DNA of 64,000 bases. Source: Brucella daejeonensis (lineage in GTDB: Bacteria; Pseudomonadota; Alphaproteobacteria; Rhizobiales; Rhizobiaceae). The translations under genes were made by a program, and so were the position numbers. Position 1 is the stretch's first letter. Each line of letters opens with the position of its first letter. A model generated the notes under the pieces. The model saw nothing but the letters and a program-made list of their open reading frames with translations, made no database searches and had not been told where the DNA came from. Where the stretch lies: NCBI RefSeq assembly GCF_014199265.1, contig NZ_JACIJG010000009.1, positions 124,001-188,000 on the forward strand. Reading direction: 5' to 3'. Shown here in pieces: positions 31,800 through 60,915 of this stretch.

Positions 31800-32151
31800 T
31801 AACGCCGTCCCCCGTCACGTCGCCGGGCTTCTTGTCCTTGACCCAGTAATAGAGCGGCATTCCGTCCTTTGCCCATTGCTTGCTGCCGTCCTTGCGCTTG
31901 ACGAGCGAATAGCCGCCCGAAGCCTTCGCGCCCTTGCTGGCCATGAAAGGCGGCCAATTCTTCGCGCAGCTATCATAGCAGCTGGACATGCCCTTGCCAT
32001 CCTTGTCGAACGTATAGAGCGTCATTCCCTTGGCGCCGGTGAGGACCTGCCCTTTGGAGCTTTCCATCGTCTTGACGGCAGGCGCCGCCACAGCCGAAGA
32101 CGCAGCCATCGCTGCGATTGCCAGTACGGACATAAAACTTGCGGTTTTCAT
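31771..32151 (-). CDS. Small secreted protein, COG4315-type repeat family
   Basis: The ATG at 32151 follows GAGGCAG and gives 126 residues. A Sec signal (MKTASFMSVLAIAAMAASSA) ends at VAAPA. The mature part has two copies of the family pattern: KGMTLYTFDKDGKGMSSCYD followed by CAKNWPPF, and DGMPLYYWVKDKKPGDVTGD, the YxFDxDxxGxxxC type seen in secreted proteins of unknown function. The two Cys may form a disulfide. It precedes an ECF sigma/anti-sigma pair and overlaps the sigma gene by 29 bases, a context I recall as common for this family in rhizobia. A role in envelope stress or redox sensing is inference. Confidence 0.85.
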   Translation of the reverse strand: MKTASFMSVLAIAAMAASSAVAAPAVKTMESSKGQVLTGAKGMTLYTFDKDGKGMSSCYDSCAKNWPPFMASKGAKASGGYSLVKRKDGSKQWAKDGMPLYYWVKDKKPGDVTGDGVNGVWHAAKP

Positions 32152-32195
32152 GATCTGCCTCACGAGAGTTTCCATCGCGACATGCGATATGGGAG

Positions 32196-32271: not shown

Positions 32272-32928
32272 CTAAAACAGCCGCAGCTTGCGGGCATGAA
32301 AAGCTTCGGCATAAGTCTCGGGCGCACGGCACTCCATGCCGCGCAGGCGGGCAAGCCCCCTGAACGTTTCCGGGTCGAACCAGTCTTTGGAGCGCTGCGT
32401 GCCGAAATGCTTCATCAGCAGATCGATCTTGCGATCCATCACCGATGCGGGAAGCGCCGAATAAGCGTTGGGCTGGCCCAGATCGCCATCCCATTTCGGT
32501 ATTTCATATTCGAGGATCACCTGATCGCGAAACAGGTTCCATGTCAGCTCGTTCACCGTGCGGTGGTCCTGATGGGCATCGCCATGACAGTGGGTGAATA
32601 CCATGTCCGGCCGGATTCGCCCGCGCTGTTCGATGAGCCATTCCTTGATGGCGCGGCGCTCGGTCGGAAAATAACTGTCCTCGAAGGAGGCCAGTTGGAT
32701 ATTGAAACTGTCTGCCCCGCGCAGGAAATCGCGCGCCGAAGCATCCGCCTCCACACGCCTTTCCCCGTTTCCCGACAGGACGCACCATTCGACATGCAGC
32801 GGCGTCCCCGTTTCGATGAGGCTCAGGAGCGTGCCGCCACAGCCGATCTCGATATCGTCGGAATGGGCACCCAGACACAGGAGTTGAAGCGGCCTGTCAC
32901 GACCGGAGAGCCCGCGCAGGTCGATCAT
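32272..32928 (-). CDS. PIG-L family deacetylase
   Basis: The 218-residue protein carries the PIG-L zinc motif as CLGAHSDDIEIGCGGTL, where Ser replaces the usual Pro of AHPDD, and a later VFTHCHGDAHQDHRTVN with the third ligand His. Family members remove acetyl groups from N-acetylated sugars, for example GlcNAc-PI or GlcNAc-inositol. Its ATG overlaps the stop of the nucleotidyltransferase gene by four bases, so it belongs to the sugar cassette at 32272-35038 and may expose an amine on the unusual sugar or its carrier. The substrate is inference from the neighbourhood. Confidence 0.87.
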   Translation of the reverse strand: MIDLRGLSGRDRPLQLLCLGAHSDDIEIGCGGTLLSLIETGTPLHVEWCVLSGNGERRVEADASARDFLRGADSFNIQLASFEDSYFPTERRAIKEWLIEQRGRIRPDMVFTHCHGDAHQDHRTVNELTWNLFRDQVILEYEIPKWDGDLGQPNAYSALPASVMDRKIDLLMKHFGTQRSKDWFDPETFRGLARLRGMECRAPETYAEAFHARKLRLF

Positions 32929-33734
32929 AGCGCTATCGCGATATTGGCCGCGCGGCGCTCCGCCTTGTGTCTCTTCCAGGGCATGTCGCCCTTTTCGACC
33001 ATGTCTTCCAGCGTCTGCCAGTCGCGCAGCGTATCCATGGACCGCCAGAAGCCTTCATATTTATAGGCCATGAGCTGGTTTTCCGCGATCAGGCGGCTGA
33101 ATGGTTCGAGCACCAGTTCCTCGCCGTCGCGCATATAGTCGAATATCTCCCGGCGGAAGAGGAAGTAACCGCCATTGATCCAGATGTCCGACGTGTTGGA
33201 GGTGCGGAATGCCCGCACGTCGCCACCCTCGGCAATATCGGCCAGGTGATAGGTCAGCGGCGGGCGCACGGCGAGAAAGCAGGCGATCCTGCCGCTGGCG
33301 CGGAAACGTTCCACCATGTCGTCGAGGTCCACGTCGCTCAGCCCATCGCTGTAATTGGCAAGGAAAATTTCCTCGTTCGCCACATGCGACCGCGCGCTCC
33401 ACAGCCGCTCGCCTATATTGCGCCAGATGCCGGTATCGAGCAGCGTCACGCTCCAGTCGCGATCGACCTCCTCCAGCAGTTGCACATTGCGCCCGCCGTC
33501 CGAGACCACGCAATCGGCGAAGGTCTGCGGGCGGATCGTCAGGAAGAAATCCTTCACCACATTGGCCTTGTAGCCGAGGCAGAGAACGAAATCGTTGTGG
33601 CCGTAATCGCTGTAATATTCCATGACATGGTGCAGGATCGGCTGGTGGCCGAGCGGGATCATCGGTTTCGGTATATTCTCCGAATATTCGCGGATTCTGG
33701 TTCCAAGACCGCCGCAGAACAGAACGACTTTCAT
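32925..33734 (-). CDS. rfbF: Sugar nucleotidyltransferase, glucose-1-phosphate cytidylyltransferase-like
   Basis: With the ATG at 33734 the product is 269 residues. The N-terminus MKVVLFCGGLGTRIREYSEN is followed by PKPMIPLGHQPILHHVMEYY, the nucleotidyltransferase signature in the form seen in RfbF. GYKANVVKDFF and ANYSDGLSDVDLDDMV (metal Asp) also match CDP-glucose synthases. It should activate a sugar 1-phosphate with CTP, although UTP or GTP cannot be excluded. It lies two bases after the methyltransferase gene and overlaps the PIG-L gene, forming a three-gene operon. No CDP-glucose 4,6-dehydratase gene is recognisable nearby. Confidence 0.82.
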   Translation of the reverse strand: MKVVLFCGGLGTRIREYSENIPKPMIPLGHQPILHHVMEYYSDYGHNDFVLCLGYKANVVKDFFLTIRPQTFADCVVSDGGRNVQLLEEVDRDWSVTLLDTGIWRNIGERLWSARSHVANEEIFLANYSDGLSDVDLDDMVERFRASGRIACFLAVRPPLTYHLADIAEGGDVRAFRTSNTSDIWINGGYFLFRREIFDYMRDGEELVLEPFSRLIAENQLMAYKYEGFWRSMDTLRDWQTLEDMVEKGDMPWKRHKAERRAANIAIAL

Positions 33735-33736
33735 GA

Positions 33737-35038
33737 TTACCGCTCCTCTGTAAGTAGTGCCGGATCGATCAATGTGACGTGCGGGATCGGAATGATGAAC
33801 TTCGCGCCCCATTCGACCACATGCTGCATCTGCCGGATGATCTCGTCCTTGAAGTTCCACGGCAGAATGAGGATGTAATCGGGCCGGTATTTGTCGATCG
33901 CCGAAACGTCGTAGATCGGTATGTGCATTCCCGGCGTGAAACGCCCGTGCTTGTAGGGATTGCGGTCGACCGTGAAATCGAGGAAATCAGTGCCGATGCC
34001 GCAATAGTTCAAGAGCGTGTTGCCCTTGCCCGGCGCGCCATAGCCGCAGATGCGTTTTCCCGCATTCTTGGCCGCGATGAGGAAGGACAGGAGATCGCGC
34101 TTGGTGCGCCGCGTCTTCTCCGCGAACTGTTCGTAGGTCGCCATCTCATTGAGGCCGAAACTCTCCTCGCGCTTGAGAAGCGCGGCAACGCGCGGCCCCG
34201 CCTTTCGCCTGCTGCCGTTACGCGCCAGATAGACCCGCAGCGACCCCCCATGGGTCGGAAGCTCCTCCACGTCGATGATCTTCAGATGATGGCGGTGCGC
34301 CATGAAGCGGATCGTCAGCAGCGAGAAATAGGAAAAATGCTCGTGATAGATAGTGTCGAACTGATTGTACTCGATCAGGTTGGCGAGATGCGGAAACTCC
34401 AGCGTGATCACGCCTTCGGGCTTGAGCAACAATTGCATACCGCGCACAAAGTCATTGAGATCAGGCACTTGCGCCAGAACATTGTTACCGATGATGAGAT
34501 CGGCCCGTCGCCCGGATGCGACCATTTCGGCGGCAAGCTCGGAGCCGAAGAAATCCACATGCGTGGGCACCCCCTTGGCGATTGCCGCTTCGGCGACATT
34601 GGCCGCCGGTTCGATCCCCAGAACCGGAATGCCCTTCGGCAGGAAATGCTGGAGCAGATAGCCGTCATTGCTGGCGATCTCGACCACGAAACTGTCGCCG
34701 TTCAGCTCCAGCTTTTCCGTGATGTCGTCGACATAGTTCCTCGCGTGGCTGACCCAGCTCGTGGCGAAGGACGAGAAATAGGCATATTCGGTGAAGATTT
34801 CGGCGGGCGTGAAATATTCCTTGAGCTGCACGAGGTAACAATGATCGCAGACGAGCGCATAGAGCGGATAATAAGGCTCCATGCGGTCGAGATGGTCCGC
34901 CGTGACGAAGCTTTCGCAAGGCGGCGACATTCCGAGATCGACGAAAGTGTGCTTGAGCAGTTTACCGCACAGGCGACAGCCGGTCTGTTCTTGCGCCATG
35001 CTCGTACTCCGCGAAATAGCCGGCGTCTGGATGGTCAT
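33737..35038 (-). CDS. Sugar C-methyltransferase-like SAM enzyme (NovU/TylCIII type)
   Basis: The 433-residue protein has the three-part layout of sugar C-methyltransferases: an N-terminal zinc domain (CRLCGKLLKHTFVDLG and CDHCYLVQL), a central SAM fold (VVEIASNDGYLLQHF, GIEPAANVAEAA, EFPHLANLIEYNQFDTIYHE) and a C-terminal domain with ICGYGAPGKGNTLLNYCGIG. NovU, TylCIII and relatives place a methyl group on carbon 3 or 5 of a nucleotide-linked keto-sugar. The start may be 35038 (AGGCGAGG upstream) or 34999 (CGGAG upstream). It heads the operon with the nucleotidyltransferase and PIG-L genes and suggests a branched-chain sugar. Confidence 0.85.
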   Translation of the reverse strand: MTIQTPAISRSTSMAQEQTGCRLCGKLLKHTFVDLGMSPPCESFVTADHLDRMEPYYPLYALVCDHCYLVQLKEYFTPAEIFTEYAYFSSFATSWVSHARNYVDDITEKLELNGDSFVVEIASNDGYLLQHFLPKGIPVLGIEPAANVAEAAIAKGVPTHVDFFGSELAAEMVASGRRADLIIGNNVLAQVPDLNDFVRGMQLLLKPEGVITLEFPHLANLIEYNQFDTIYHEHFSYFSLLTIRFMAHRHHLKIIDVEELPTHGGSLRVYLARNGSRRKAGPRVAALLKREESFGLNEMATYEQFAEKTRRTKRDLLSFLIAAKNAGKRICGYGAPGKGNTLLNYCGIGTDFLDFTVDRNPYKHGRFTPGMHIPIYDVSAIDKYRPDYILILPWNFKDEIIRQMQHVVEWGAKFIIPIPHVTLIDPALLTEER

Positions 35039-35360
35039 GCGTCATACCTCGCCTGTCCCGTCCCGTCAGGGCCAAGGGTTGTTTCCGATCCCGTCGGATG
35101 ACCAAAACTACTAAGCGGTCTAAAAATTTCCGAGACTGTCATGGGGGGCGAGCCATACATACCATCGGGCGCAACCTTCACCGGACGGACTAGCGGGGAC
35201 AGATACCCGATCTGCGCCCTATGGCGACGCAGGCGTAGGAACTTAAGCCTTTTGGTCGAGACGGCATCGCCATGGGGTGGGCCATATGCTTCGAAGAAGG
35301 TTCTATCGCCGCGTTTTCCCGCTGTCAGAATGCGCCGATACCGCAATCGGGGCGAGTTCC
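35039..35360. other. 322-bp divergent control region
   Basis: The gap separates the C-methyltransferase operon (-) from the RmlC-like epimerase gene (+). No gene is convincing; a frame extending the epimerase upstream of 35361 is Arg-rich and unlike the family. GGCGAGTTCC provides a weak ribosome site before 35361. I find no clear palindrome or promoter pair. Confidence 0.5.
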
Positions 35361-35885
35361 ATGCGTTTCCATCCGCTCGATATAGACGGCGCCTGGTTCA
35401 TCGAGCCTGACCGGCTCGAGGACGAACGCGGCTGGTTCGCGCGCGCCTATTGCGAAGCCGCCTTTGCCGAGCGGCGTATGGAAACCCGTTTTCCCCAGCA
35501 CAGCCTTTCCTTCTCCCGCAGGAAGGGAACGCTGCGCGGCCTGCATTATCAAAGCGAACCGCATTCGGAGACCAAGCTCGTCGCCTGCCTGCAAGGGGCG
35601 ATCTGGGACGTTCTGGTCGATCTTCGCCCGCATTCGCCAACCTTCCGGCGCTGGACCGGAATGGAGCTTTCAGCGAATAATGGCGTCCAGCTCTATATTC
35701 CCGAAGGCTGCGCGCACGGTTTCCAGACGCTTACGCCGGATGTGCTCATGCGGTACATGATCTCGAAACCTTATGCGCCTGATCATGCAACGGGTCTGCG
35801 CTATGACGACCCAGCGCTCGGCATCGCGTGGCCGAACAAGCCAAGCGTCATTTCCGACAGGGATCTGGCGTGGCCGCCGCTTTGA
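35361..35885 (+). CDS. RmlC-like nucleotide-sugar 3,5-epimerase
   Basis: Starting at the ATG at 35361, the 174-residue cupin has DERGWFARAYCEAAF, KGTLRGLHYQ with the catalytic His, GAIWDVLVDLRPHSPTF and YIPEGCAHGFQTL, followed by GLRYDDPALGIAWP, all hallmarks of dTDP-4-dehydrorhamnose 3,5-epimerases. It epimerises a 4-keto sugar nucleotide. Next to a cytidylyltransferase-like gene and a C-methyltransferase it may act on a CDP-linked intermediate rather than on dTDP. Its 3' end overlaps the convergent DUF4910 gene by 38 bases. Confidence 0.87.
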   Translation: MRFHPLDIDGAWFIEPDRLEDERGWFARAYCEAAFAERRMETRFPQHSLSFSRRKGTLRGLHYQSEPHSETKLVACLQGAIWDVLVDLRPHSPTFRRWTGMELSANNGVQLYIPEGCAHGFQTLTPDVLMRYMISKPYAPDHATGLRYDDPALGIAWPNKPSVISDRDLAWPPL

Positions 35886-37200
35886 GGAGATCGGCAGCGC
35901 GAAGCCGGTCGGCAGCATCGGCAAGCACTGCAAATGGCAGTTTCGACCGCTCCGCCATGTCGAGTATGGAACAGGCGCCATCTGCCAGATTGAGCACCCA
36001 GAGCATCGCCATCGCGTCTCGCGCCGCACGCCCGTCGCCGCCCGTGCTGCCATAAAGACCGCGCCGCCCAAGCTGCGGCTCGCCCTTTGGAGAAGTGTTC
36101 AGTGGATTCCAGTTTCTCTCTGCGATTTCAATGGCCTGCATAATCATGTTGAAAGACTGATCGAGACAGTCCGGCCGGATGAAATCCAGATTGTCGGCTG
36201 ACGTATGATATTCGGGAAAAGCACCGTAGAGACTGCGCTGGAACATACCGACCGGCAGGTTGAACCCCGGCGAGCAGAATTGCCGCTCGTCATATCCATA
36301 GGGCCAGAAGTCGTGCATCGCCGCGCCGGGAAGCCCGCATTCCGCGAGCACATGGCCCATGATACGGTCGATCCCGGCATCGCCGCGACGACTGCGCTTG
36401 TAATTGGGCCCGCCTGCATCGCCGACGCAAGCGAGCACCAGCCCGTGCCGCACGCGGTCCAGCCCGCCCTCGTTTTGCCTGAGCCATGCCAGCGCGCCGA
36501 ATGTCGCCGGGCCGAAAAGCAGGCGATAGGTAAGGCGCGTGCGCCGCGATTGCAGCACCTCCCCCAGCCGGGTCAGAAGCGCCAGTCCCGAGCAATTGTC
36601 GTTGGCAAGCGACGGGTGACAGAGATGCGCGGAGAGGATGAAGGTTTCGTCCGTTTCGCCCCGATGAACGAACTCCCCGAAGGCGAGAAAGCCGTCGCGG
36701 CGCTCCGCATCGATCATGACGTCATATTCGCCGTCCGGCATTGCGACAAGGGCGTCATGCGCCATGCAGAAGCCCCACCCTTCCGTGTGATAGCAGGTGC
36801 GATAAGGAATGAGGTCCGGCTGGTCCGGCAGCGTGTGAATATGATCCTTCAGCGCGCCAAGCGGCATCCGCGCCCTGACCGGCATGCTGAAATTCACCAC
36901 ATGCAGGTTGTGACGGGCGAAATCGACGATGCGATTGCCCTGCATGTCCGCGATATAGGCTTCGCGGACAGACCATTCCTGCGGCGCCTTCCAGTCGTAA
37001 AGCTGCGTGCCGCTGGCAACCTCATGGATCGCCAGCGGCAGATGCTCCGCGATGATGGCAAGCGTTTCGCGCACGCCCTCGCCGGCAAGGCTGCGGCAGA
37101 GCGGATAGAGCCGTGCGGCGAGATCGTAAATGACCACCCCGTTCGACGGAGGCGAAGCCCCCGCCTCGCCCGTTGCGCGATCTGCCCGCCTGTCCATCAT
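35848..37200 (-). CDS. DUF4910 aminopeptidase-fold protein
   Basis: The 450-residue protein belongs to a poorly characterised family related in fold to M28 zinc peptidases. [16 protein letters not shown] (His192, His195, Asp201) and PEYHTSADN (His332) supply metal ligands. Where M28 peptidases have the catalytic Glu pair, this protein reads [12 protein letters not shown], with no acid. A C-terminal winged-helix-like tail follows. The gene overlaps the epimerase gene downstream on the opposite strand, and its ATG overlaps the stop of the NAD-epimerase gene by four bases. In this setting it may hydrolyse an amide on a sugar rather than a peptide; this is inference, and no such reaction is established to my knowledge. 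Confidence 0.78.
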
Positions 37201-38258
37201 GCCGTTGCCCGTAGCGGCTGCGCATCTTCCTCCACCCGCCGCAGGGCGCCGTCCAGAACGCCCTCGGCGATGAGCTTTCGTATATGCGCGATGCGCTGGA
37301 AACGCGGGCCTTCGAATTCCTCAAGCGTGAGCGTCGAGCGGCTATAGGCGGCGAGAAGTTCGCGAGCGCCCGCCACCGCATCCCATTCGGGTTTCGCTTC
37401 GGGAAGCACCCGCGCCAGCTTTTCGAAACTGACCCGATAGGAACGCGTGTCCGGCCCGGCATCCTCGGCATATTCCAGACGGCAGTCCGGCACATTGTCG
37501 GCGACAATCCGGGCAATATCGCGGATACGATAATTATGCGCCGTGGTGCCGACATTGAAGGCCTCGTTCCACACCTTGTCGCGCGGGGCTTCCATCGCGG
37601 CCATGAAGGCGCGCGAAATGTCCCTTATATGGACGATGGGCCGCCATGGCGTACCGTCCGATTTGAGATAGATCAGCCCCTTGGTCACCGCCCAGGCCAC
37701 GAGATTGTTGAGCACGATATCGAAGCGCAGGAAGGGCGAAACGCCATAGGCGGTCGCCGGGCGCAGGTAGACCGGGCAGAAGCTCGCATCCGCCAGTTCT
37801 CGGATTTCCTGCTCGGCCCGCACCTTCGAGCGGCCATAGGCCGTGACCGGCTTCAATTCGCCGGTCTCATCGATCAGCTCGGCATCGCTGACACCGTAAT
37901 TGCTGCACGAGGAGGCAAGGAGAAAGCGTCCGACGCCTGCCTCCCTGGCGGCTTTGGCCATGGCGACGCTTGCCCGGTGATTGATGTCGTAGGTCAGTTC
38001 TTCGTTGAGATTGCCCAGCGGATCGTTGGACAGGGCGGCGAGATGGATGACGGCATCCAGCCCCTCCAGATCGCGCGGCGACACATCGCGCACATCCTTG
38101 CGGATGGTCGGCACATTCATGACCGCGCCGCCCTGTTCAAAAAGACAATGTTCGTAAAGACCGATGTCGTAGCCGTACACCTCATGCCCCGCATCGATCA
38201 GCACCGGCACCATGACCGACCCGATATAGCCCTGATTTCCCGTCACCAGCACTTTCAT
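37197..38258 (-). CDS. NAD-dependent sugar epimerase/dehydratase
   Basis: The ATG at 38258 follows GAGGAGTC and gives 353 residues. The extended short-chain dehydrogenase features are [44 protein letters not shown] and the catalytic Tyr-x3-Lys in [28 protein letters not shown] is a common family motif. It could supply a dehydratase, epimerase or reductase step on the nucleotide sugar made by the cytidylyltransferase-like enzyme, perhaps filling the place of the missing 4,6-dehydratase. It is the first gene of a two-gene operon with DUF4910. Confidence 0.85.
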
Positions 38259-38377
38259 GTCCGACTCCTCAAGCTTCAGTAAATGTATGTTAGCGAGCAC
38301 CAATGAGGGCGGCGAGTTGACCGAAGGCATGTCCGGTTAGGACAAGCGTTTATGAGAGGCGCGAAAGGGCGTATCGC

Positions 38378-39703
38378 CTACCCCTTTCGGATGGGCTGCA
38401 ATCGCGCGGCGTCCCCGATCAGAAGCAGCCAGTCGCTGCGTTGGGCGTAGGGACGGTCCGGCGGCGGCGTAAAGTGGAGCACTCCCCCGTCATTCACGAC
38501 GACCGGCTGCGCCTGCCTTATCCCGCCCGAGGCAGGATCGAACCAGAGCGCCTGCCGGTCGCCGCGCACCGCGCTCTTCCTCACCCGGAAATCGTCCCCT
38601 TCACCATAGATGACGGTCAGGCTGCGGTCGGGCAGCGCCGCCGCATAGCCCTTCCCGTCGGCGAGGATGTCGTTCTCGCTATCCGGTTCGAGCTGCGGCC
38701 AGGGAAGCCTGTCGAACAGCCGCTTCAGTACCGTCATCGACCGCGCACCCGGACTGTTCAGCGCCTCGCGCCAGCTTTGATCGGCGGTAAAGACACCGGG
38801 ACCGGTGAAATGCCAGACCGGATTATTGCCGAAGAACTGTCCCGCCGCGCCCGCCAGGAGCGCGCCATAGGCGTTGCGCCGGACCATGCGCGCAGTCGTA
38901 TCCCGCTCGAATTCATAGGCACTTTCCAGCAGAATGACGGGCATTGCCGCCGCCTGCCGCCGTGCGGCCAGCACCGCATGAACGTCGCCATAGCTATAGA
39001 CCGTGTCCAGGCCGAACCATGGCTCGCCGCGCCAGATTTCCGCTGTATTGCTGTCGCGGCCCGAATGAACAGTCTGGAGAACGCCCGGCGCACCGCGCGC
39101 AATGCCTTGGGCAAGGCTTGAGACGAGCCGCCGGTCGGGCGCATCGAAGTCGCCGCCCATCACCCAGACGATGTTTCGAAACTGTGCGAAGCGCTGGGCC
39201 ACCGCCTCGCCATAAGCGCGCATCGCGTCCGGCCCTGCGGCTTCCGCTTCCGAAAACCAGCCCTGATCGCCACCGTTCACGCCGAGATAGGCCGGGGCGA
39301 GGAAGACCGCCAGCCCAAGCTTCTGCGCTTCGCCGATCACCCCGGCGGCATGATCGAAATAGGCCGGATCGAGCCTGCCGAAGGCCTTTCCCGCGAAAGG
39401 CCGATCGCCATAGGCGTTCGCGGGCGGATTGCTGGAAAAACGCTTCTCGATCAGATTGACCAGAATGGTGTTGAAACCCCTCGCCTTCCGGTCGCGCAGA
39501 TAGGTTTCGGCATCCTCGCGCTTCAGTTCCGCGATGAGGGACCAGGCCGTGTCGCCCTGCAACAGGAATGGCGCGCCGGTCGCATCCTCGAAAAAGCGAT
39601 GACTGCGGCTGACGCGGAGCGGAAACGCGACGTCGGCAAGTGCCGCGCCGGCCGTCGCGACGGACACCATGCCCGCGATGAGCGCCACGACGAGAAATCT
39701 CAT
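38378..39703 (-). CDS. Secreted DUF4038 glycoside hydrolase-like protein
   Basis: The 441-residue protein has a Sec signal (FLVVALIAGMVSVATAGAAL, cut near ALADV). Its TIM-barrel has DTAWSLIAELKREDAETYL and RKARGFNTILVNLIEKR, with NIVWVMGGDFD later, as in DUF4038 proteins, which include GH140 apiosidases. A C-terminal beta domain (collagen-binding-like, QALWFDPASGG) follows. It is probably periplasmic and could trim or release the polysaccharide built by this locus. Its ATG overlaps the aminotransferase stop, so it is co-expressed. The exact glycosidic bond is unknown. Confidence 0.8.
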   Translation of the reverse strand: MRFLVVALIAGMVSVATAGAALADVAFPLRVSRSHRFFEDATGAPFLLQGDTAWSLIAELKREDAETYLRDRKARGFNTILVNLIEKRFSSNPPANAYGDRPFAGKAFGRLDPAYFDHAAGVIGEAQKLGLAVFLAPAYLGVNGGDQGWFSEAEAAGPDAMRAYGEAVAQRFAQFRNIVWVMGGDFDAPDRRLVSSLAQGIARGAPGVLQTVHSGRDSNTAEIWRGEPWFGLDTVYSYGDVHAVLAARRQAAAMPVILLESAYEFERDTTARMVRRNAYGALLAGAAGQFFGNNPVWHFTGPGVFTADQSWREALNSPGARSMTVLKRLFDRLPWPQLEPDSENDILADGKGYAAALPDRSLTVIYGEGDDFRVRKSAVRGDRQALWFDPASGGIRQAQPVVVNDGGVLHFTPPPDRPYAQRSDWLLLIGDAARLQPIRKG

Positions 39704-41055
39704 CGCATTGTCTGCGGATAGGCGGTCGCCTCGTTGAAACGGCGATAGACCACCTGCGACGGGCGCCCGGTCAGGTAGGTATGGACGCCGTCATCGAGCG
39801 CCCTTGCATAAATGCCGAGCGCGCCGTCGATGGCGTCCACCGTGCGGGCGATGTCCGTGTCGCTATGGGTGTAGCTCACCACCAGCGACGGCATCAGCAC
39901 GCCGCGGCGGATCGTTTCCTGAAGGAACAGCGTGCGGAAGGCCTGCGAAGGCTCACCCTTCCGGTCAAGCGTCGCATAGGCAAGGCAGCAGGGCCGCCCG
40001 GACAGGCGGACATGGTCCTGAAGGCCATGACGCGCAATGGCCTCGTTCACCCCTTCGGCGAGTTTCGCCCCCTGTTCGTAGAGCCGTTCGATCACCGGTT
40101 CGTCGCGATAGATCGCGATGGTCGCCATTGCCGCCGCAAGGGAATGGGTTTCCGCGCCATGCGTGGTCGAGAGCAGGAATACGCGCGGATGGTCGGTCTG
40201 GATCAGCCCGCCAAGCTGCATATATTCCGCCTTGCCAGCCAGCGCGGAAATGGCGAAGCCGTTGCCCATCGCCTTGCCGAAACAGGACAGGTCCGGCACG
40301 ATCCCGTAGAGCTTTTGCGCCCCGCGCCGGTGCCAGCGAAAGCCCGTGATCATCTCGTCCAGAATGAATAGCGCGCCGTTTTCATGCGCGATGCGTCTTG
40401 CTTCATGCAAAAAATCGCCACGCGGCTCGTCGGCGCGCGCAGGTTCCAGGATGATCGCCGCAATGCGTCCGGGATAGTCGTCGAACAGCGCCTGCACACT
40501 GGCGATGTCGTTGTAGCGGAATGTCGCAGTCAGGGCTGAAACGGTGGCCGGAATGCCCGCATTCATCTTCGTCGTGCCGATAAACCAGTCATCCGTCGAA
40601 AAGAACGGATGATCGGCGCAACAGGCGATCATGTCGCGCCCCGTATAGGCGCGGGCGAGCCGGACCGCGCCGGACGTCGCGTCCGAGCCGTCCTTGCAGA
40701 ACTTCACCATTTCCGCGCCATCGATCAGGTCCAGAAAGCTTTCGGCACATTCGACCTCCATGGCGCCGGGGCGCGTGAAATTGCAGCCGTCCTGCAACGC
40801 GTCGCGCACGGCGCGCAGCACCGGCGGATAGGCATGGCCCAGCCCAACGGCGCGATTTCCCATGCCATATTCGATATATTCATTGCCATCGACGTCGAAG
40901 ACATGCGAGCCGGAACCACGCTGGATAAAGCCCGGCGCCAGAACCGGATACTGGTCGTCGCCCTTGGCATAGGTGTGGCACCCGCCCGGAATGAGCGCGT
41001 GGGCCTTGCTTCCCAGAAGCTGGGAATTGCGGAACTGGGATGTGAAAAGGTTCAT
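39700..41055 (-). CDS. Class III PLP aminotransferase, glutamate-1-semialdehyde aminomutase-like
   Basis: The 451-residue protein shows the class III pattern: GSHVFDVDGNEYIEYGMG, KFCKDGSDATSGAVRLARAY for phosphate binding, LFILDEMITGFRW with the Asp that contacts the pyridine nitrogen, and LSCFGKAMGNGFA with the PLP lysine. AAAGGAG precedes the ATG. It is not the housekeeping HemL type by context, because it sits among surface-sugar genes. Such HemL-like enzymes occur in O-antigen loci and may aminate a keto sugar or a substituent. The substrate is unknown. Confidence 0.85.
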   Translation of the reverse strand: MNLFTSQFRNSQLLGSKAHALIPGGCHTYAKGDDQYPVLAPGFIQRGSGSHVFDVDGNEYIEYGMGNRAVGLGHAYPPVLRAVRDALQDGCNFTRPGAMEVECAESFLDLIDGAEMVKFCKDGSDATSGAVRLARAYTGRDMIACCADHPFFSTDDWFIGTTKMNAGIPATVSALTATFRYNDIASVQALFDDYPGRIAAIILEPARADEPRGDFLHEARRIAHENGALFILDEMITGFRWHRRGAQKLYGIVPDLSCFGKAMGNGFAISALAGKAEYMQLGGLIQTDHPRVFLLSTTHGAETHSLAAAMATIAIYRDEPVIERLYEQGAKLAEGVNEAIARHGLQDHVRLSGRPCCLAYATLDRKGEPSQAFRTLFLQETIRRGVLMPSLVVSYTHSDTDIARTVDAIDGALGIYARALDDGVHTYLTGRPSQVVYRRFNEATAYPQTMR

Positions 41056-41067
41056 GCCCGTCTCCTT

Positions 41068-42288
41068 TCAGGCGCCTGCATGGAGGCGTTCGCGCATCTG
41101 CCGCAACCAGTTCTTGACCGGTTTCGGCAGGCGGCTTCTCAAACTCGAATGCAGCGCCGCCGGCATCGCCCATTGCGATAGTGGCAATGGCGACGCTATC
41201 GGCGGGCGGTCCCGCTCCAGATTTTCCAGAAGCGCGGCATAGGTGCGCCCGACCGCATCATTGTCGAAGGTCGTCGCGACTTTTTGCGCCGCCGCATCCG
41301 CCATGCGGGCGCGCAGCGCCGGGTCCGCCGCCAGACGGTCGATATGCGCAGCCGCCTGCCTGCAATTGCCTATGGCGAACAGGAAGCCGTCCTCGCCGTC
41401 GCGGACAATGGTGTCGGTTACGCCCGCAATCCTCGACGCCACGGCGGGACAGCCCTCGCTCATCGCCTCGATCAGCGTCATGCCGAAACCTTCATAGCGC
41501 GACGGCATGACCATCGCATCGTGCTCGCGCGCCAGACGGGGCACGTCGCAAGGCGCGACCCAGCCCCGGAACGAAACCCGCTCGCCGAACGGCGCCAGAC
41601 GGCGGCGCAGTTCGGGCAGGTCCGGCCCGTCTCCCGCGACGGTCAGGTGGTAGCGGCATTTGAGTTCCCGAAGAATATGCGGCAACCAGAACACGCCCTT
41701 GGAACTGTCTTCGATCCGCCCGAAACACAGAATCCGCAGCGGCAATCCGTCGGCGGCACCGCGTTCGGGCACCGGACGGGGGCGGCGCGTCAGCCCGTGC
41801 GGAATGGCGAGCGTGCGCATGGCATCGAAACCGTGCAGCCGCACCAGATCGTCGCGGCAGCGCCGCGAGACGCCGACGGTCGCATGGACATGATCGCGGA
41901 TCGCCCGCGCCGCCGCATAGGTGCCGGGCGTGATGTTGTGGACGATCATGACGCGCAAAATGTCGGCAGGAAGATAGCGTACCAGATTGGTTTCGAAGCG
42001 CTGCGAGAGCACATTGACGAAAACCGCGTCGAAGCGGTTCTCGCGCAGGAAGTCCATCATGCGCCTGGCGCGGGTGCCCTCGTCCAGAACGCCCATCCGG
42101 TCGATTGCGTCTCCGTGGCGCTGCGCATCTTCCAGCCCCGGCCCGTCCGGCAGCATGACCGCATCGCCCGGCGCGCCTGAAGCCAGCCAGCGCAACTCCA
42201 CGCCGGACCGGGCAAGCGACGCGCGCAGATTGGTAAACACCGTATAGGTGCCGCCGATATGCGGACGAACGAAGTAAGCACATTTCAT
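41068..42288 (-). CDS. Glycosyltransferase family 4
   Basis: The ATG at 42288 gives 406 residues with an N-terminal HIGGTYTVFTNLRASLA loop, a middle RILCFGRIEDSSKGVFW and the donor-site SRYEGFGMTLIEAMSEGCP with the E-x7-E pair, a textbook GT4 layout. It transfers a sugar to the growing repeat unit on the cytoplasmic side of the membrane. It lies 12 bases upstream of the aminotransferase gene in the same direction and probably begins that operon. A strong hairpin (42321-42346) lies in its 5' region. Confidence 0.88.
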   Translation of the reverse strand: MKCAYFVRPHIGGTYTVFTNLRASLARSGVELRWLASGAPGDAVMLPDGPGLEDAQRHGDAIDRMGVLDEGTRARRMMDFLRENRFDAVFVNVLSQRFETNLVRYLPADILRVMIVHNITPGTYAAARAIRDHVHATVGVSRRCRDDLVRLHGFDAMRTLAIPHGLTRRPRPVPERGAADGLPLRILCFGRIEDSSKGVFWLPHILRELKCRYHLTVAGDGPDLPELRRRLAPFGERVSFRGWVAPCDVPRLAREHDAMVMPSRYEGFGMTLIEAMSEGCPAVASRIAGVTDTIVRDGEDGFLFAIGNCRQAAAHIDRLAADPALRARMADAAAQKVATTFDNDAVGRTYAALLENLERDRPPIASPLPLSQWAMPAALHSSLRSRLPKPVKNWLRQMRERLHAGA

Positions 42289-42531
42289 GGCCGCAACCCT
42301 GTTGCCTGCGCGGGGAAAGACTTCGAGGGAAAACGCTCCCTCGAAGCCTTCGTCTGGTATATCGGGGGGCAATAGATATACCGCTTGCCAGTGTATCGAA
42401 ATCGCGCCGCCGCGTATTTCGACTATCAGGGGTAGGACCCATCCTACATTAGAGGATGGTGTTCACCCTTCTGCCAGTTTTCCCGCAGGCCCGTCTGGCC
42501 TTAGCCTATCTGCCCAGCGGGAGACACGCGC
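42289..42531. promoter_or_regulatory. Divergent control region with hairpin and palindrome
   Basis: Between a GT4 gene (-) and a pyruvyl transferase gene (+) lie a perfect 10-bp hairpin, CTTCGAGGGA with TCCCTCGAAG (42321-42330 and 42337-42346), and a perfect palindrome, GTAGGA-CCCA-TCCTAC (42432-42447). The hairpin would fold in the GT4 mRNA leader. The palindrome lies about 85-145 bases from both starts, a position suited to a dimeric regulator such as the LuxR-type protein of this locus; that link is inference. Confidence 0.5.
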
Positions 42532-43740
42532 ATGAAGATTGGACTTCTCGGGCAGTTCGGTTCCGGCAATACCGGCAATGACGGTTCACTGGAGGCCATG
42601 CTGCAATTGCTGAAGCGCAATTGTCCCGATGCCAGGATCGTCTGCATCTGCTCGAAGCCCGAAATCGTCGCCAGCAATTTTCGGATCGACGCCCGCCCGG
42701 TCGCGCAGGCGCTCCCCTCGAACCGGCTGCTTGCCGCGATCAACGAGGCGCTGATGCACTATCCCCGCCGGGCGGTTGGCTTCGGCGCCGCGTTCTTGCT
42801 CGCCCGCAGGCTCGACCTCATCATCGTGCCGGGCACCGGCATCCTCGATGATTTCAACGAGAACCCCTTTGGCTGGCCGTTCACCATGCTGCGCTGGTCG
42901 CTTGCGGCGAAACTCGCCGGAACGCGCCTTGCCTTCGTATCCATCGGCGCCGGTCCGGTTCGCCATCCGTTAAGCCGTTTCTTCATCCGGCAGGCCTCGT
43001 CATTATCTCCCTTCCGCTCCTATCGGGATCAGGTTTCCCACGATTTCATGAAGGGGCTTGGCGTCGATTCCAGGCGGGATTTCGTCAGCGCGGACATCGC
43101 CTTCGCCCTGCCGACCGCCCCGGAAAGCCAGCTTGATGAAAACCGGCTTGGCGAAAGCCAGCGCGTCGGCATCGGCGTGATGACCTATCGCGGGTGGAGA
43201 AAGAGCGCGGAGGACGGTGCTGCGATATATGACGGCTATCTGGGCAAGATGACCGCCCTTATCGGCAATCTTCTGGCCGCGGGCCGAAAGGTCCGCCTGC
43301 TGATCGGTGACAAGGGCGATATGGAGGCCGCGAAGGACATACTGGCAAGGCTCGGCCCCGAAGAGGCCGAAAAGGTCATCTTCGAACCGTCTGCCTCCCT
43401 GCACGACCTCATGGACCAGATCGCCAGAACCGACATCGTCGTCGCAAGCCGCTACCACAATATCGTCTGCGCGCTCGCCATGAAACGCCCGGCGATCTCG
43501 GTCGCCTATGCCAGCAAGAACGACGCGCTTTTGCACGATAGCGGCCTCGACGCCTTTTGCCATCATATCGAAAGCTTCGACCCGCAAACCGTGCTTTCCC
43601 AGATCGATGGCATGTTCGAAGAACGGGAAAGGCTCGTCGCAGGCGTAGAGACCGGTGTGGAGCGCTATCGCGACCGGCTGGCGCAACAGGAGGAAACGCT
43701 CCGCGCCGCGTTCTTCGAAAACATCCGTCAGCCTGCCTGA
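42532..43740 (+). CDS. Polysaccharide pyruvyl transferase family protein
   Basis: The 402-residue protein begins MKIGLLGQFGSGNTGNDGSL, the family's glycine-rich start. It has LIIVPGTGILDDFNENPFGW, RLAFVSIGAGPVRHPLSRFF and VVASRYHNIVCALAMKRPAI, whose Arg-x-His pattern is conserved in CsaB-like enzymes. It should add a pyruvate ketal from phosphoenolpyruvate to a sugar, giving the polymer negative charge. This is the second such gene in the window and differs clearly from the one at 6845. It is convergent with the next GT2 gene, ten bases apart, over a GGGGTTC-T-GAACCCC dyad. Confidence 0.88.
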   Translation: MKIGLLGQFGSGNTGNDGSLEAMLQLLKRNCPDARIVCICSKPEIVASNFRIDARPVAQALPSNRLLAAINEALMHYPRRAVGFGAAFLLARRLDLIIVPGTGILDDFNENPFGWPFTMLRWSLAAKLAGTRLAFVSIGAGPVRHPLSRFFIRQASSLSPFRSYRDQVSHDFMKGLGVDSRRDFVSADIAFALPTAPESQLDENRLGESQRVGIGVMTYRGWRKSAEDGAAIYDGYLGKMTALIGNLLAAGRKVRLLIGDKGDMEAAKDILARLGPEEAEKVIFEPSASLHDLMDQIARTDIVVASRYHNIVCALAMKRPAISVAYASKNDALLHDSGLDAFCHHIESFDPQTVLSQIDGMFEERERLVAGVETGVERYRDRLAQQEETLRAAFFENIRQPA

Positions 43741-43750
43741 TCGCGATCCG

Positions 43751-44740
43751 TCACGGCTGGGGTTCTGAACCCCCACGCCGAACGGAGCGCATCAGCAGAT
43801 AATCGACGGGCGGCACAACCGCCAACAAGGGCCTGCGCTTCAGCGCGAAGCGCATCAGCGAAGCCGCGCCCTTCTCCCGCCGCAGCAGATTGGAGACGGC
43901 TGACCAGTAGGCGCGCTTGGTCAGGCAGTTCCGCGCCAGAGCGAACAGGCGCCGCCGGTCGGGCATGTCCGCGCCTTCATGCTCGAAGAAAGAGCGGAAT
44001 CCCGCCTCGAACTCCCGGTTCCAGTGCAGGATGCCATCGACGGTCGCCGACTGGTTGTGCGGATGGGAACGCGCATAAGCCTGTATCCGGCGGGTCGTGG
44101 CGACCGAACCGTGCAGCGCGATGCGCAGCCACATTTCCAGATCGTCCGTATGGGATAGCGAGGGACGGTAATGTCCGGCAGCTTTCTGGACCACGGTCCT
44201 CACCACCGCCGTCGGGCCAGTGACCGGATTGAAAGCGTGACGGCAGGCGAATTCGATGAATTCGCTTCCCGATCTTATCCGCCAATCCTCCTCCGCCGCT
44301 GTCTCGTCCGCCACTGGAAGCGCGCTGCCTTCGCCCGCCAGCCGGCCCGCCGCGCCATGCGCCAGATGAACATCGGGCCGCAGGGACAGGAGCCGCGCCG
44401 CCCGCTCCAGCGCGCCTTTTGCCAGAAGATCGTCCGAGCACAGGATCAGGAAATAATCGGCCCGCGCCCAGTCCACTCCGTCATTGAACGAGGCATGGGG
44501 GCCGAGATTTTTCGGACGCAACAGCAGTTCGACACGGGCGTCGCCCGCCGCAAGCTCGTTGGCGACCTCACGGCTGTTGTCGGTCGAGGCATTATCGATG
44601 ATGAGCAGGCGGACATCGACGCCCGATTGCTGCAACACGCTGTCCGCGCAGGCGGCGAGATAGCGGCCATAGTTGAAATTGGGAATGACGACATCGATTG
44701 CCAGCCGTTCCCCTTCGCGCTTGTCCGTGAGCCTCCGCAT
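43751..44740 (-). CDS. Glycosyltransferase family 2
   Basis: The ATG at 44740, with AGGG upstream, gives 329 residues. AIDVVIPNFNYGRYLAACAD, LIIDNASTDNSREV, FNDGVDWARADYFLILCSDD (the metal site) and SHTDDLEMWLRIALHG, whose Asp-Asp stands in for the usual Glu-Asp base, define a GT-A family 2 enzyme. It probably adds an internal sugar of the repeat unit. It lies ten bases after the flippase gene and is therefore co-transcribed with it. A much longer frame reaching 44971 overlaps the flippase and is rejected. Confidence 0.88.
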   Translation of the reverse strand: MRRLTDKREGERLAIDVVIPNFNYGRYLAACADSVLQQSGVDVRLLIIDNASTDNSREVANELAAGDARVELLLRPKNLGPHASFNDGVDWARADYFLILCSDDLLAKGALERAARLLSLRPDVHLAHGAAGRLAGEGSALPVADETAAEEDWRIRSGSEFIEFACRHAFNPVTGPTAVVRTVVQKAAGHYRPSLSHTDDLEMWLRIALHGSVATTRRIQAYARSHPHNQSATVDGILHWNREFEAGFRSFFEHEGADMPDRRRLFALARNCLTKRAYWSAVSNLLRREKGAASLMRFALKRRPLLAVVPPVDYLLMRSVRRGGSEPQP

Positions 44741-44750
44741 GAAAGTCGCC

Positions 44751-46247
44751 CTATTCCGCCGGGGTGGACGCCGCATGGCGCGCGCGTCCTGGAGAGCGCC
44801 GTGAAAGAAGCCAGCCCAATACCGAAGCAATCTCGGAAGCGAACGGGTGCCGGAGCATGAAGACGGCGCCGAGCCAGCCGAACAGCGCGACGATGCCCAT
44901 CGCGATGCCGGTCGCCCAGTGGATTTCCAGCGAGAAACCGTTGGCGGCGACCAGCGCAAGCGGCGCGGCAAGGGCTGCGAGCGTCACGAGACCGCTCGTC
45001 AGCAGCGCCCTCGCCAGCACCGCATAGGAAAAGGCCACATGCCTGCGCACGAAGACGATGGCGATGACCATCTGGATCGGCAGGCTGATGAACTGGCTGA
45101 GCGCGACGGCGAGCAGGCCATGAAAGGCAGCTGTGCAAATGACCGTCGCGGCAACGGTTCGCGACAGGAAATTGGACAGGAACGCTTCGCGATTGGCTCC
45201 AAGCGCCATCAGCAACGGATAGGTCAGGATGACCGGGAACCAGAAAAGGCAGGCAAGGCTGAGGATCGCCAGTATGGGCGCCGCCTCCGACCAGTCGGGG
45301 CCGAGGACGATAGTCACTGCCGGGTGGGCGAGCAGGGCCAGCAGCGCCTGCGCCGGCCAGTAGACCACCGTGATATAGGACAAGGCGCGAATATAGGACT
45401 GGCTGATATCCGCTCCGGCGCGGACCTGCGCGGAAAGCATCGGAAAAGCGACCGTAAAAACGGCGGACAGGATGATGCGGTCGGGCAGGCCGCTCAGCGT
45501 ATCCGCACGATTATAGATTCCGACCGACGAGACCGGCATGAAACGCCCCAGCAGAAGCTGCGGCATCGTCGTGCAGATCTTGTTCAGCCCCGCATTGCCG
45601 CCAAGATAGATGCCGAACCTCCAGGCCGTATAGAAACTGGCGAGCGACGGACGCATCAGCCGCCCGAGCGGATGGCCGGTGATCGCAAGGCCGGTCGTCG
45701 CCAGCGCGCTGGCCAGAAGCCCGAAGGCGAAGCACATATGGCCGAAGCCGAAAAACGCCATGGCAATGGTGACCAGCGCGCCGAAGCCTGACCCGGCGGT
45801 GCGGATGCGGGCCAGTGCGCCAAAGGCCATTTCGCGCCGCAAAAGCGCTACGACGGGAAGCGACAGGCTTTCCACCAGAGCGGCGGCGATCGTCACATTG
45901 AGGAAGAGCGTCAGCTTCGGATCGTTATAGGACCGGGCGAAATAATCCTGTGCCAGATAGAGCGCCAGCGCCAGAACAAGTGTAACCCCCATGAGGAAGG
46001 TGAGCGCGGTGCGGACATCCTGATCGCGCACCCGGTCGATCTTTATGAGAAATTCCGGGCTTGCGAATTCACGCAGTGAAAAAACGATAGCCGTGATGCT
46101 GAGGCCGATAACGCCCATGCCGGTTTCCGTCGGCCCCAGAAAACGGGAGACCACGGCCACGGTGATGAAATTGAAGAGCAGCCCCGCATATTGCTCCAGC
46201 GCCGCCATCAGGAAGCCTCTGCGGAAGCCCTTGCGAGCGCTATTCAT
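44751..46247 (-). CDS. wzx: Polysaccharide flippase (Wzx-like, MOP superfamily)
   Basis: The 498-residue integral membrane protein has about twelve to fourteen hydrophobic helices and begins with MAALEQYAGLLFNFITVAVV, then SRFLGPTETGMGVI, typical of lipopolysaccharide-type flippases. FMPVSSVGIYNRADTLSGLP matches the conserved region around helix 7. It should flip undecaprenyl-linked repeat units to the periplasm for polymerisation. GGAGCG lies upstream of the ATG. The gene is divergent from the WecA-like gene across a repeat-containing region. Confidence 0.88.
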   Translation of the reverse strand: MNSARKGFRRGFLMAALEQYAGLLFNFITVAVVSRFLGPTETGMGVIGLSITAIVFSLREFASPEFLIKIDRVRDQDVRTALTFLMGVTLVLALALYLAQDYFARSYNDPKLTLFLNVTIAAALVESLSLPVVALLRREMAFGALARIRTAGSGFGALVTIAMAFFGFGHMCFAFGLLASALATTGLAITGHPLGRLMRPSLASFYTAWRFGIYLGGNAGLNKICTTMPQLLLGRFMPVSSVGIYNRADTLSGLPDRIILSAVFTVAFPMLSAQVRAGADISQSYIRALSYITVVYWPAQALLALLAHPAVTIVLGPDWSEAAPILAILSLACLFWFPVILTYPLLMALGANREAFLSNFLSRTVAATVICTAAFHGLLAVALSQFISLPIQMVIAIVFVRRHVAFSYAVLARALLTSGLVTLAALAAPLALVAANGFSLEIHWATGIAMGIVALFGWLGAVFMLRHPFASEIASVLGWLLSRRSPGRARHAASTPAE

Positions 46248-55215: not shown

Positions 55216-56286
55216 TTGCAGGAAAAAACGGCTCTCATCGTCGGCGTGACCGGACAGGACGGCGCTTATCTGAGCGAACTTCTGCTCAACAAGGGCTATC
55301 GCGTGCACGGGCTGAAACGGCGTTCCTCCTCGTTCAACACGGCCCGTATCGACCATCTCTATCAGGACCCGCACGAGGAGAATGTCCGCTTCCGTCTCCA
55401 TTTCGGCGACCTGACGGATGCCACCAATCTGTGCCGCGTCATTCAGGAAGTGCGCCCGGACGAAATCTACAACCTCGGCGCCCAGAGCCATGTGCAGGTG
55501 AGTTTTGAAACCCCGGAATATACCGCCAATGCCGACGCGCTCGGCACGTTGCGGCTTCTGGAGGCCCTGCGCATTCTGGGCCTGGGAAAAACCTGCCGCT
55601 TCTATCAGGCCTCGACATCCGAACTGTTCGGCAACAGTTCGCCGCACGCCCAGAACGAGCATACCCCCTTTGCGCCGCGTAGCCCCTATGCGACGGCGAA
55701 GCTCTATGCCTACTGGACGACGGTCAATTATCGCGACGCCTATGGCTTTCACGCCTCGAACGGCATCCTGTTCAACCATGAAAGCCCGCTGCGCGGCGAG
55801 ACATTCGTGACGCGCAAGATCACGCGCGCGGTCGCCGCCATCGAACGCGGATTGCAGGACAGGCTGCGGCTCGGCAATCTCGATTCCCGCCGCGACTGGG
55901 GCCATGCCCGCGACTATGTGGAGGGCATGTGGCGCATCCTGCAGGAAGACACGCCCGACGATTACGTTCTCGCGACCGGCGAGACGCATACGGTGCGCGA
56001 ATTCGTCGAACATGCCTTCAGGGCCGTCGACCGGGAGATCGAATGGTGCGGCGACGGTGCAGGGGAGACGGGCATCGACCGCAAGACCGGCAATTGCCTG
56101 ATCGAGATCGATCCGCGTTATTTCCGTCCGAACGAGGTCGATTTCCTGCTCGGCGACGCCTCCAAGGCAAAGGCCCGCCTCGGCTGGCAGCACAGGACCG
56201 GCTTTGAAAGCCTCGTCGCGGAAATGATGGACTGGGACCTGCGCAACATCATGCGGGAGGCCGGGCGCAATGACTTCTACGGCTGA
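55216..56286 (+). CDS. gmd: GDP-mannose 4,6-dehydratase
   Basis: The start is the TTG at 55216, after GGAGGGAA, giving 356 residues, the normal Gmd length. [20 protein letters not shown] is the NADP site; [26 protein letters not shown] and [11 protein letters not shown] (Tyr-x3-Lys) follow, with [20 protein letters not shown] at the GDP site. It converts GDP-D-mannose to GDP-4-keto-6-deoxymannose, the first step to GDP-L-fucose. It overlaps fcl by 17 bases. The genes for GDP-mannose synthesis are not in the window. Confidence 0.96.
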
Positions 56287-57250
56287 AACGGGACCGGAGC
56301 GGATCTATTCGCTCGAAGGCAAGAAAGTCTTCATCGCCGGGCATGGCGGCATGGTCGGATCGGCGATCCTGCGCCGGCTCAGGCGCGAGAATTGCGATAT
56401 CATTACCGCCGCTCGCAGCGCGCTCGACCTGACCCGACAGGGACCGACCGAGAACTTCATCACCGGCCGCAAGCCGGATGTCATCATCGTCGCCGCCGCC
56501 CGCGTCGGCGGCATTCTCGCCAATGCGCAGTCCCCGGCCGACTTTCTCTACGACAATCTCGCCATCGGCATGAATATCATCCACGCCGCGCATCAGGCGG
56601 GCGTGGAGCGCCTGCTCTGGCTCGGCTCGAGCTGCATCTATCCGCGCGACGCGGCGCAGCCGCTTGCCGAACAAAGCCTCCTGACCGGACCGCTGGAAGC
56701 GACCAACGAAGCCTATGCGATCGCCAAGATCGCCGGGCTGAAATATGCCGAAGCCTGCGCGCGCCAGCATGGCGACCGCTTCATCACCGCCATGCCGACC
56801 AATCTCTACGGGCCGAACGACAATTTCGACCCCGACACCTCGCATGTCTTGCCGGCCCTGATGCGGCGCATCCATGAAGCGAAGACCGGAGGGGCGGATA
56901 AGGTCACGCTGTGGGGAAGCGGCACGCCGCTGCGCGAATTCCTGCATGTGGACGACCTTGCCGATGCCTGCCTGCACCTCCTGCAATTCCATGACGGCAT
57001 CGAGCCGGTCAATATAGGCTCCGGCGAGGAAATCCCGATCCGTGAACTGGCGCTGACCATCGCCCGCATCGTCGGTTATGAAGGCCGCTTCGAGCACGAT
57101 CTCGACAAGCCGGACGGCACGCCGCGCAAGCTTCTCGACACCTCGCGGATGCGCGCGCTCGGCTGGCGGCCCCGCATCGCTCTCGAAGACGGACTGCGTG
57201 CCGTCTATCGCGACTGGCTGGAAAGAACCGCCGATCCCGTCGCGGCATGA
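56270..57250 (+). CDS. fcl: GDP-L-fucose synthase
   Basis: The 326-residue protein has [39 protein letters not shown] with the catalytic Ser and Cys region, [17 protein letters not shown] (Tyr-x3-Lys), [20 protein letters not shown] and [14 protein letters not shown], all diagnostic for the GDP-4-keto-6-deoxymannose 3,5-epimerase-reductase. It completes GDP-L-fucose synthesis after Gmd. The two genes overlap by 17 bases and are surely co-translated. Fucose, or a derivative of it, is therefore a likely component of the polymer. It is convergent with the Wza-family gene. Confidence 0.95.
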
Positions 57251-58520: not shown

Positions 58521-58530
58521 GCCATCCCCC

Positions 58531-60768: not shown

Positions 60769-60915
60769 GGAAACTCTCCTCTACGGACGATTTCGTCCGC
60801 CTGCAAACCGCTGCATTTTTTGCCGGAAGGCCCTGGTCTCATCGAAGCGGGACTGGAAGTCAGTCCAGCGGACTGATTTTCCCGCGTAGGCGGCCCCCAC
60901 ATCGGGGAACATGCT

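Follow-up and report, generated by a model that had tools for sequence, protein, structure and literature searches.

Gene Organization of the Cluster

A 64,000-nucleotide stretch of the Brucella daejeonensis genome (contig NZ_JACIJG010000009.1, positions 124,001 to 188,000 of the forward strand; hereafter the window) carries, between positions 32272 and 41055, a cluster of genes with a predicted role in the making of a nucleotide sugar, seven of which are the subject of this report. The host genome is an alphaproteobacterial one of 4.64 Mb and the nearest named relatives of the locus are from Brucella/Ochrobactrum species. The protein families, assigned by Pfam and NCBIfam, are as follows:

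32272..32928, minus strand: PIG-L family deacetylase-like protein, 218 amino acids (PF02585, E=1.8e-15)
32925..33734, minus strand: RfbF-like sugar-1-phosphate cytidylyltransferase, 269 amino acids (TIGR02623, PDB 1TZF)
33737..35038, minus strand: S-adenosylmethionine (SAM)-dependent sugar C-methyltransferase (C-MT), Methyltransf_13/23/14, 433 amino acids (PF08484, E=5e-68)
35361..35885, plus strand: RmlC-type NDP-4-keto-sugar 3,5-epimerase (TIGR01221, 169 bits)
35848..37200, minus strand: DUF4910 + DUF2172 + HTH_47 protein, 450 amino acids, relative of CA_C2195 (PF16254, E=2e-104; PF09940; PF16221)
37197..38258, minus strand: extended short-chain dehydrogenase/reductase (SDR), 353 amino acids, proposed CDP-sugar C4 oxidase in place of the CDP-glucose 4,6-dehydratase RfbG
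38378..39703, minus strand: apiosidase-like protein (PF13204, DUF4038), probable exported glycoside hydrolase, 441 amino acids, accessory
39700..41055, minus strand: class III aminotransferase resembling glutamate-1-semialdehyde aminomutase (GSA), 451 amino acids (NF004856, 830.7 bits)

Read along the minus strand, the order is GSA, apiosidase-like, SDR, DUF4910, C-MT, RfbF-like and PIG-L. Stop and start codons overlap between the GSA and apiosidase-like genes (39700-39703), the SDR and DUF4910 genes (37197-37200) and the RfbF-like and PIG-L genes (32925-32928), and a gap of 2 bases separates C-MT from the RfbF-like gene. The RmlC gene is placed between those for DUF4910 and C-MT; it converges on the DUF4910 gene and overlaps its end. 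A preliminary description of this DNA had listed seven adjacent genes with overlapping stops and starts. All seven genes and the overlaps are real, but the RmlC gene lies on the plus strand and the apiosidase-like gene had been missed.

Conservation of the Seven Genes

DUF4910 loci were gathered from the order (Rhizobiales), the phylum and named genomes, and all predicted proteins of 25 loci, the window and 24 others, were clustered into families. DUF4910 is present in 25 loci, SDR in 21, PIG-L in 20, C-MT in 19, GSA and RfbF in 18 each and RmlC in 17. These are the only families found in most loci, the next most common one occurring in 9 of the 25. As the choice of loci by DUF4910 biases these counts, 298 genomes of the order were then searched with single proteins, which is free of that bias. 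C-MT is found at an identity of at least 62% in 15 of these genomes, after which identity falls to 53%, and the RfbF-like protein at an identity of at least 62% in 16, followed by a fall to 42%. The genomes with a close DUF4910 protein (about 55% identity or more) and those with C-MT are exactly the same 15 (the core genomes), and the RfbF-like gene is present in all of them and in one more (G286). The SDR is found in 14 core genomes (the exception is G053), RmlC in every one, mostly inside the cluster, and GSA in 12; a close GSA occurs in 14 of the 298 genomes, all of which have some DUF4910. The hypergeometric p values for these co-occurrences, uncorrected for phylogeny, range from 5e-17 to 1e-25. 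The core genomes belong to six families, their gene order differs, and in one of them (G167) the genes are split across three contigs. Mirror-tree correlations, made without a control gene, are positive but uneven (0.18-0.87) and are not used as support. The seven genes are a real unit, grouped far beyond chance. The preliminary description had read them as one nucleotide-sugar pathway with C-methylation and had looked to the joint occurrence of the DUF4910, C-MT and RfbF-like genes in other genomes; the 298-genome searches bear out both the co-conservation and this joint occurrence.

The set extends beyond the class. On plasmids of Streptomyces sp. KN37 and NBC_01483 all seven genes are co-directional within ~10 kb, together with a pyruvyl transferase gene, and in Nonomuraea five of the seven are consecutive, with RmlC in addition. 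These actinomycetotal proteins are 39-56% identical to those of the window. In Sinorhizobium fredii NGR234, Shinella, Neorhizobium and Qingshengfaniella the set is accompanied by large parts of the exopolysaccharide locus around it; identities in these loci are mostly 53-78% for the seven proteins, versus mostly 23-54% for the glycosyltransferases, flippase and export proteins. On Tsukamurella and Gordonia plasmids (L094:3600-10338 and L095:3587-10329) C-MT, RfbF, PIG-L, SDR, RmlC and GSA lie together. In G286 (L068:8073-12729) a DRL_cat/SAF reductoisomerase-like gene comes after orthologues of RfbF, PIG-L, SDR and RmlC, in the place of C-MT and DUF4910, and this gene is possibly another route to a branched sugar.

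The SDR as a Probable Replacement for RfbG

The absence of RfbG from the visible gene set, as first remarked from the window, holds for the whole genome, where the best score for CDP-glucose 4,6-dehydratase (TIGR02622) is 79 bits versus a cut-off of 278. RfbG above this cut-off was absent from 15 of the 16 genomes searched, G053 being the sole pass. In G053 a true RfbG (404 bits) lies immediately upstream of DUF4910, in the slot taken elsewhere by the SDR, and the SDR is absent. The NAD-dependent enzyme, earlier suspected of an unusual first step, thus seems to replace RfbG. SDR homologues are fused to C-MT in two loci (L069 and L070), a similar SDR/C-MT reading frame occurs in Leisingera, and in another locus (L077) an SDR homologue is followed by RmlC, beside an RfbF-like gene. 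One genus of the order has an SDR homologue fused to a DegT/DnrJ/EryC1 aminotransferase beside an RfbF-like gene (L075:9464-11767 and L076); the DegT half is confirmed by Pfam for L075. C-MTs, sugar aminotransferases and RmlC-type enzymes generally use 4-keto nucleotide sugars, and an SDR that is fused to or adjoins such enzymes is therefore most likely the ketone maker.

The manner in which the ketone would be made is suggested by the active site. The loop reads SSCS[NIV]YG or STCSVYG in 39 of 40 SDR homologues, with YxxSK kept, whereas dehydratases have Thr-Asp-Glu or Asp-Lys at this place; the acid/base pair after the Thr is found in none of the 40. For comparison, the motif is TDK or SDK in the RfbG proteins of L024 and L082 and TSE in GDP-mannose dehydratase. 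The score of the SDR against the dTDP-glucose dehydratase model is 32.6 bits, with a cut-off of 365. Both results count against the alternative of an SDR that acts as an unrecognised 4,6-dehydratase and leads to an ordinary CDP-6-deoxy-3-C-methyl sugar, as in operons of the RfbF-RfbG-C-MT-RmlC type. Such operons do exist (Methylocystis, L093; S. meliloti, SMb21416-21418, PMC4053727; L082), 3-C-methyl-D-rhamnose has been reported from Phyllobacterium trifolii according to a reference title cited in PMC5644692, and in G053 RfbG stands where the SDR would be while the remaining pathway genes are the same. Weighing these points, we regard this alternative as unlikely, a Ser/Thr-Cys-Ser motif without the acid/base pair disfavouring a 4,6-dehydratase.

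Among solved structures Cj1427 (6VO6 and 6VO8) is the closest to the SDR in sequence (E=7.5e-33; the next one has 4e-18), and in a fold search with a structure model of the SDR (mean pLDDT 87) the top six matches are all six Cj1427 chains. The SDR also keeps the Ser-Tyr-Lys triad, as do Cj1427-like C4 dehydrogenases. Cj1427 is a C4-dehydrogenase that makes a 4-keto GDP-heptose, on which RmlC-like epimerases subsequently act (PMC10680097). Since Cj1427 is the nearest solved structure by both sequence and fold and the dehydratase pair is missing, C4 oxidation that keeps the C6 oxygen is proposed for the SDR. Weighing against this assignment, GalE-type epimerase structures come close behind Cj1427 in the fold search, and most extended SDRs that carry a Ser-Tyr-Lys triad act as epimerases or reductases, so the homologues could be 4-epimerases. 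The SDR would then be a CDP-sugar 4-epimerase or a terminal 4-ketoreductase, and the keto substrate of C-MT would come from another dehydratase in the genome. This appears quite improbable, as the fusions of the SDR to C-MT and to an aminotransferase beside RfbF and the exchange with RfbG in G053 speak for a keto-forming role on a CDP-sugar, and the 25 loci show no link of the set to any other dehydratase. Judged from sequence and modelling, the probable function of the SDR is to stand in for CDP-glucose 4,6-dehydratase and form the 4-ketone with O-6 retained.

Cytidylyltransferase, C-Methyltransferase and Epimerase

The RfbF-like protein scores 207.6 bits with TIGR02623, under the cut-off of 300.25 for glucose-1-phosphate cytidylyltransferase, and matches the glucose-1-phosphate cytidylyltransferase structure 1TZF with E=8e-50. 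By these measures it is related to classical RfbF and falls in a separate, divergent subfamily. Its sugar is likely to be glucose, and the true RfbG of G053 supports CDP-glucose. The nearest structures to the C-MT are the sugar 3-C-methyltransferases MtmC (4RV9) and TcaB9 (3NDI); the zinc-binding, SAM and C-terminal domains are all present and the YHEH motif is kept in 37 of 37 aligned sequences. The RmlC score of 169 bits is above the TIGR01221 cut-off. A second rmlC, on contig 17, adjoins a dehydratase gene; the copy in the cluster is thus not the sole rmlC, and rhamnose as the reason for its presence is weakened. Accidental grouping within a polysaccharide island, with RmlC serving rhamnose and the aminotransferase and PIG-L unrelated amino sugars, would suit the mosaic nature of polysaccharide loci and the opposite orientation of RmlC in the majority of alphaproteobacterial loci, but it is rejected as highly improbable by the 25-locus clustering, the near-perfect co-occurrence in the 298 genomes, the conservation in Actinomycetota including the Streptomyces plasmids, the second rmlC, and the better conservation of the seven genes than of the transferase, flippase and export genes in the same loci.

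DUF4910 and the Other Putative Tailoring Proteins

The DUF4910 protein matches PDB 3K9T over its full length (E=2e-131) and has the same three domains (DUF4910, DUF2172 and HTH_47) as the CA_C2195 family to which that structure belongs. The His/Asp/His ligands for a single zinc are conserved, and the catalytic Asp and Glu of M28 peptidases are replaced by Ser/Gly/Ala and Pro, as in 3K9T (PMC4000134). On this ground an M28-type peptidase role is unlikely, and so is an ordinary amidase role, such as the amide hydrolysis initially suggested for this protein. According to the same paper, of 2014, DUF4910 genes have epimerases, nucleotidyltransferases and methylases as neighbours in many phyla; it mentions Brucella by name and suggests a function in modified surface carbohydrates (PMC4000134). 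The idea is therefore not wholly new. The links given in the main text of that paper are general ones (epimerase, nucleotidyltransferase, methylase, N-acetyltransferase) without a defined pathway. The remark that DUF4910 has no established sugar chemistry stands in that no reaction was found in the literature, more than 10 years after the link to surface sugars and despite the crystal structure; the association with surface-carbohydrate operons was already in print. Among 24 more distant DUF4910 loci (L026-L049) the seven-gene set is mostly absent and a NeuB-type nonulosonate synthase gene, the most frequent partner there, lies nearby in 12, implying that DUF4910 is active in at least two sugar contexts.

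PIG-L is a predicted deacetylase-like protein with its metal motifs kept: AHxDD is present in 33 of 33 aligned sequences (AHSDD in 30, AHADD in 3) and AHQDH in all listed variants. The aminotransferase scores 830.7 bits with NF004856 (cut-off 486) and 219.6 bits with the hemL model TIGR00713 (cut-off 527.3); an identity as HemL, glutamate-1-semialdehyde aminomutase, is rejected by the latter score, and the pyridoxal phosphate lysine motif is kept. The proposal that it adds nitrogen to the sugar is plausible from its sequence, with the correction that this step would be optional, GSA being absent from 3 of the 15 core genomes. The apiosidase-like protein has a hydrophobic N-terminus and is encoded in 8 of the 25 loci, and also in Qingshengfaniella, S. 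fredii and Neorhizobium. The polymer bearing the branched sugar may be its substrate.

The Surrounding Exopolysaccharide Locus

Beyond position 41055 the following genes and regions are found:

41068..42372, minus strand: GT4 glycosyltransferase belonging to this exopolysaccharide locus and shared by several related loci
42532..43740, plus strand: polysaccharide pyruvyl transferase (PF04230, E=2e-38), also in alphaproteobacterial and Streptomyces loci
43751..44971, minus strand: GT2 glycosyltransferase, in 9 of the 25 loci, 33-54% identity in the compared loci
44751..46247, minus strand: Wzx-type flippase of the exopolysaccharide locus (PF13440, E=6e-44)
After the flippase and before the Wza-like and Wzc-like genes: GDP-mannose dehydratase and GDP-fucose synthase genes
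55216..57250, plus strand: region kept in Shinella, Qingshengfaniella and Azospirillum loci
57273..61692, minus strand: Wza-like export protein, Wzc-like chain-length/kinase protein and LuxR-family regulator, also in Qingshengfaniella, Shinella and Neorhizobium loci

The GT4, pyruvyl transferase, GT2, Wzx and Wza/Wzc-like genes indicate that the seven-gene set serves an exopolysaccharide-type locus. The GT2 glycosyltransferase, the best shared transferase, is a candidate user of the sugar. On the other side of the cluster (30469-32175) lie genes for an extracytoplasmic function (ECF) sigma factor, a probable anti-sigma protein and a secreted-repeat lipoprotein. No RNA families were found in the window, and matches in promoter and terminator scans were no more frequent than in shuffled sequence.

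Proposed Pathway

The gene identities, their co-conservation, the active-site signatures and the exchange of SDR and RfbG in one genome are the observations on which a pathway can be drawn. We favour, with reasonable rather than strong confidence, one dedicated pathway of the seven genes for a CDP-activated, C-methyl-branched sugar of a Wzx/Wza/Wzc-type exopolysaccharide. A hexose-1-phosphate, most likely glucose-1-phosphate, would first be joined to CMP by the RfbF-like enzyme. The SDR would then turn C4 into a ketone and keep the C6 oxygen, a task that classically falls to RfbG and involves dehydration. The C-MT would add a methyl group beside the ketone, probably at C3, and the RmlC-type enzyme would epimerise C5 and/or C3. 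The C4 ketone would be removed by reduction through the same SDR, or by the GSA-type aminotransferase where present; since the shared genes include no separate ketoreductase, this last reduction may fall to the SDR as well. Finally, PIG-L and the single-zinc DUF4910 protein would take part in acyl or other tailoring. In this scheme the functional steps are all drawn from sequence, as are the substrates, the order of steps, the methyl position and the product; the last may prove to be a branched hexose with or without an amino group, or else a 6-deoxy sugar. A more specific version, which we put forward only tentatively and would not yet back at even odds, is a new route of Alphaproteobacteria and Actinomycetota, in which a Cj1427-like SDR oxidises C4 of a CDP-hexose without 6-deoxygenation, and C-methylation, epimerisation and amination or acylation follow with the help of DUF4910. 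Its product would be a branched (amino) hexose not described before, with the C6 hydroxyl intact.

Several points weigh against this pathway. The identity thresholds of the genome searches were set after the gaps in the score lists had been seen. The score of the RfbF-like protein under its curated cut-off means that its sugar may differ from glucose. The set is also modular, since C-MT and DUF4910 are both missing beside RfbF-PIG-L-SDR-RmlC in G286, and in Tsukamurella and Gordonia a second C-methyltransferase-like gene takes the position of DUF4910, which is absent; GSA, as said, is missing from three core genomes.

Comparison with Known Systems

The C-MT belongs to the same three-part enzyme family as TylC3, MtmC, TcaB9 and NovU of antibiotic pathways. 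The substrates of these enzymes are TDP-2-deoxy or 6-deoxy sugars of secondary metabolism. A second comparison is with kansosamine, a 6-deoxy, 3-C-methyl 4-amino sugar. The lipooligosaccharide cluster of Mycobacterium kansasii makes N-acyl kansosamine, and its species-specific genes, in the part of the table covered, include a glucose-1-phosphate cytidylyltransferase, an NAD-dependent epimerase/dehydratase, a rhamnose epimerase and a methyltransferase; the likeness is one of annotation, not of sequence, and PIG-L and DUF4910 do not appear in that part (PMC4403928). In the classical operons, annotated as RfbF-RfbG-C-MT in S. meliloti (SMb21416-21418; PMC4053727) and as RfbF (DdhA)-RfbG (DdhB)-C-MT-RmlC on a plasmid of Methylocystis MJC1, the cytidylyltransferase family, a homologous C-MT, RmlC (in Methylocystis) and, by the scheme proposed here, a CDP-4-keto sugar are shared with the present set. 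They differ in having RfbG, where the present set has a Cj1427-like SDR and a divergent RfbF, with PIG-L, DUF4910 and a GSA-type aminotransferase added. The Cj1427 pathway of Campylobacter jejuni proceeds, as proposed for the present set, through a 4-keto NDP-sugar without 6-deoxygenation and an RmlC-like epimerase, but it acts on GDP-heptose, has no C-methylation and uses a separate C4-reductase (PMC10680097). In the literature searched, which mostly excluded subscription papers, only these partial overlaps were found and no description of the seven-gene pathway, of the replacement of RfbG by the SDR or of the product.

Significance

Many soil and plant-associated bacteria keep the seven genes together, and the set marks a recurring type of exopolysaccharide in rhizobia and their relatives, including Sinorhizobium fredii NGR234. 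If the exchange of RfbG for the SDR is true, it would be a clean example of the formation of a 4-keto CDP-sugar without deoxygenation. A recurring set of enzymes with a proposed CDP-4-keto-C-methyl intermediate also makes the function of DUF4910 directly testable, and the new route, if true, would give this family its first enzymatic role, one other than peptide hydrolysis.

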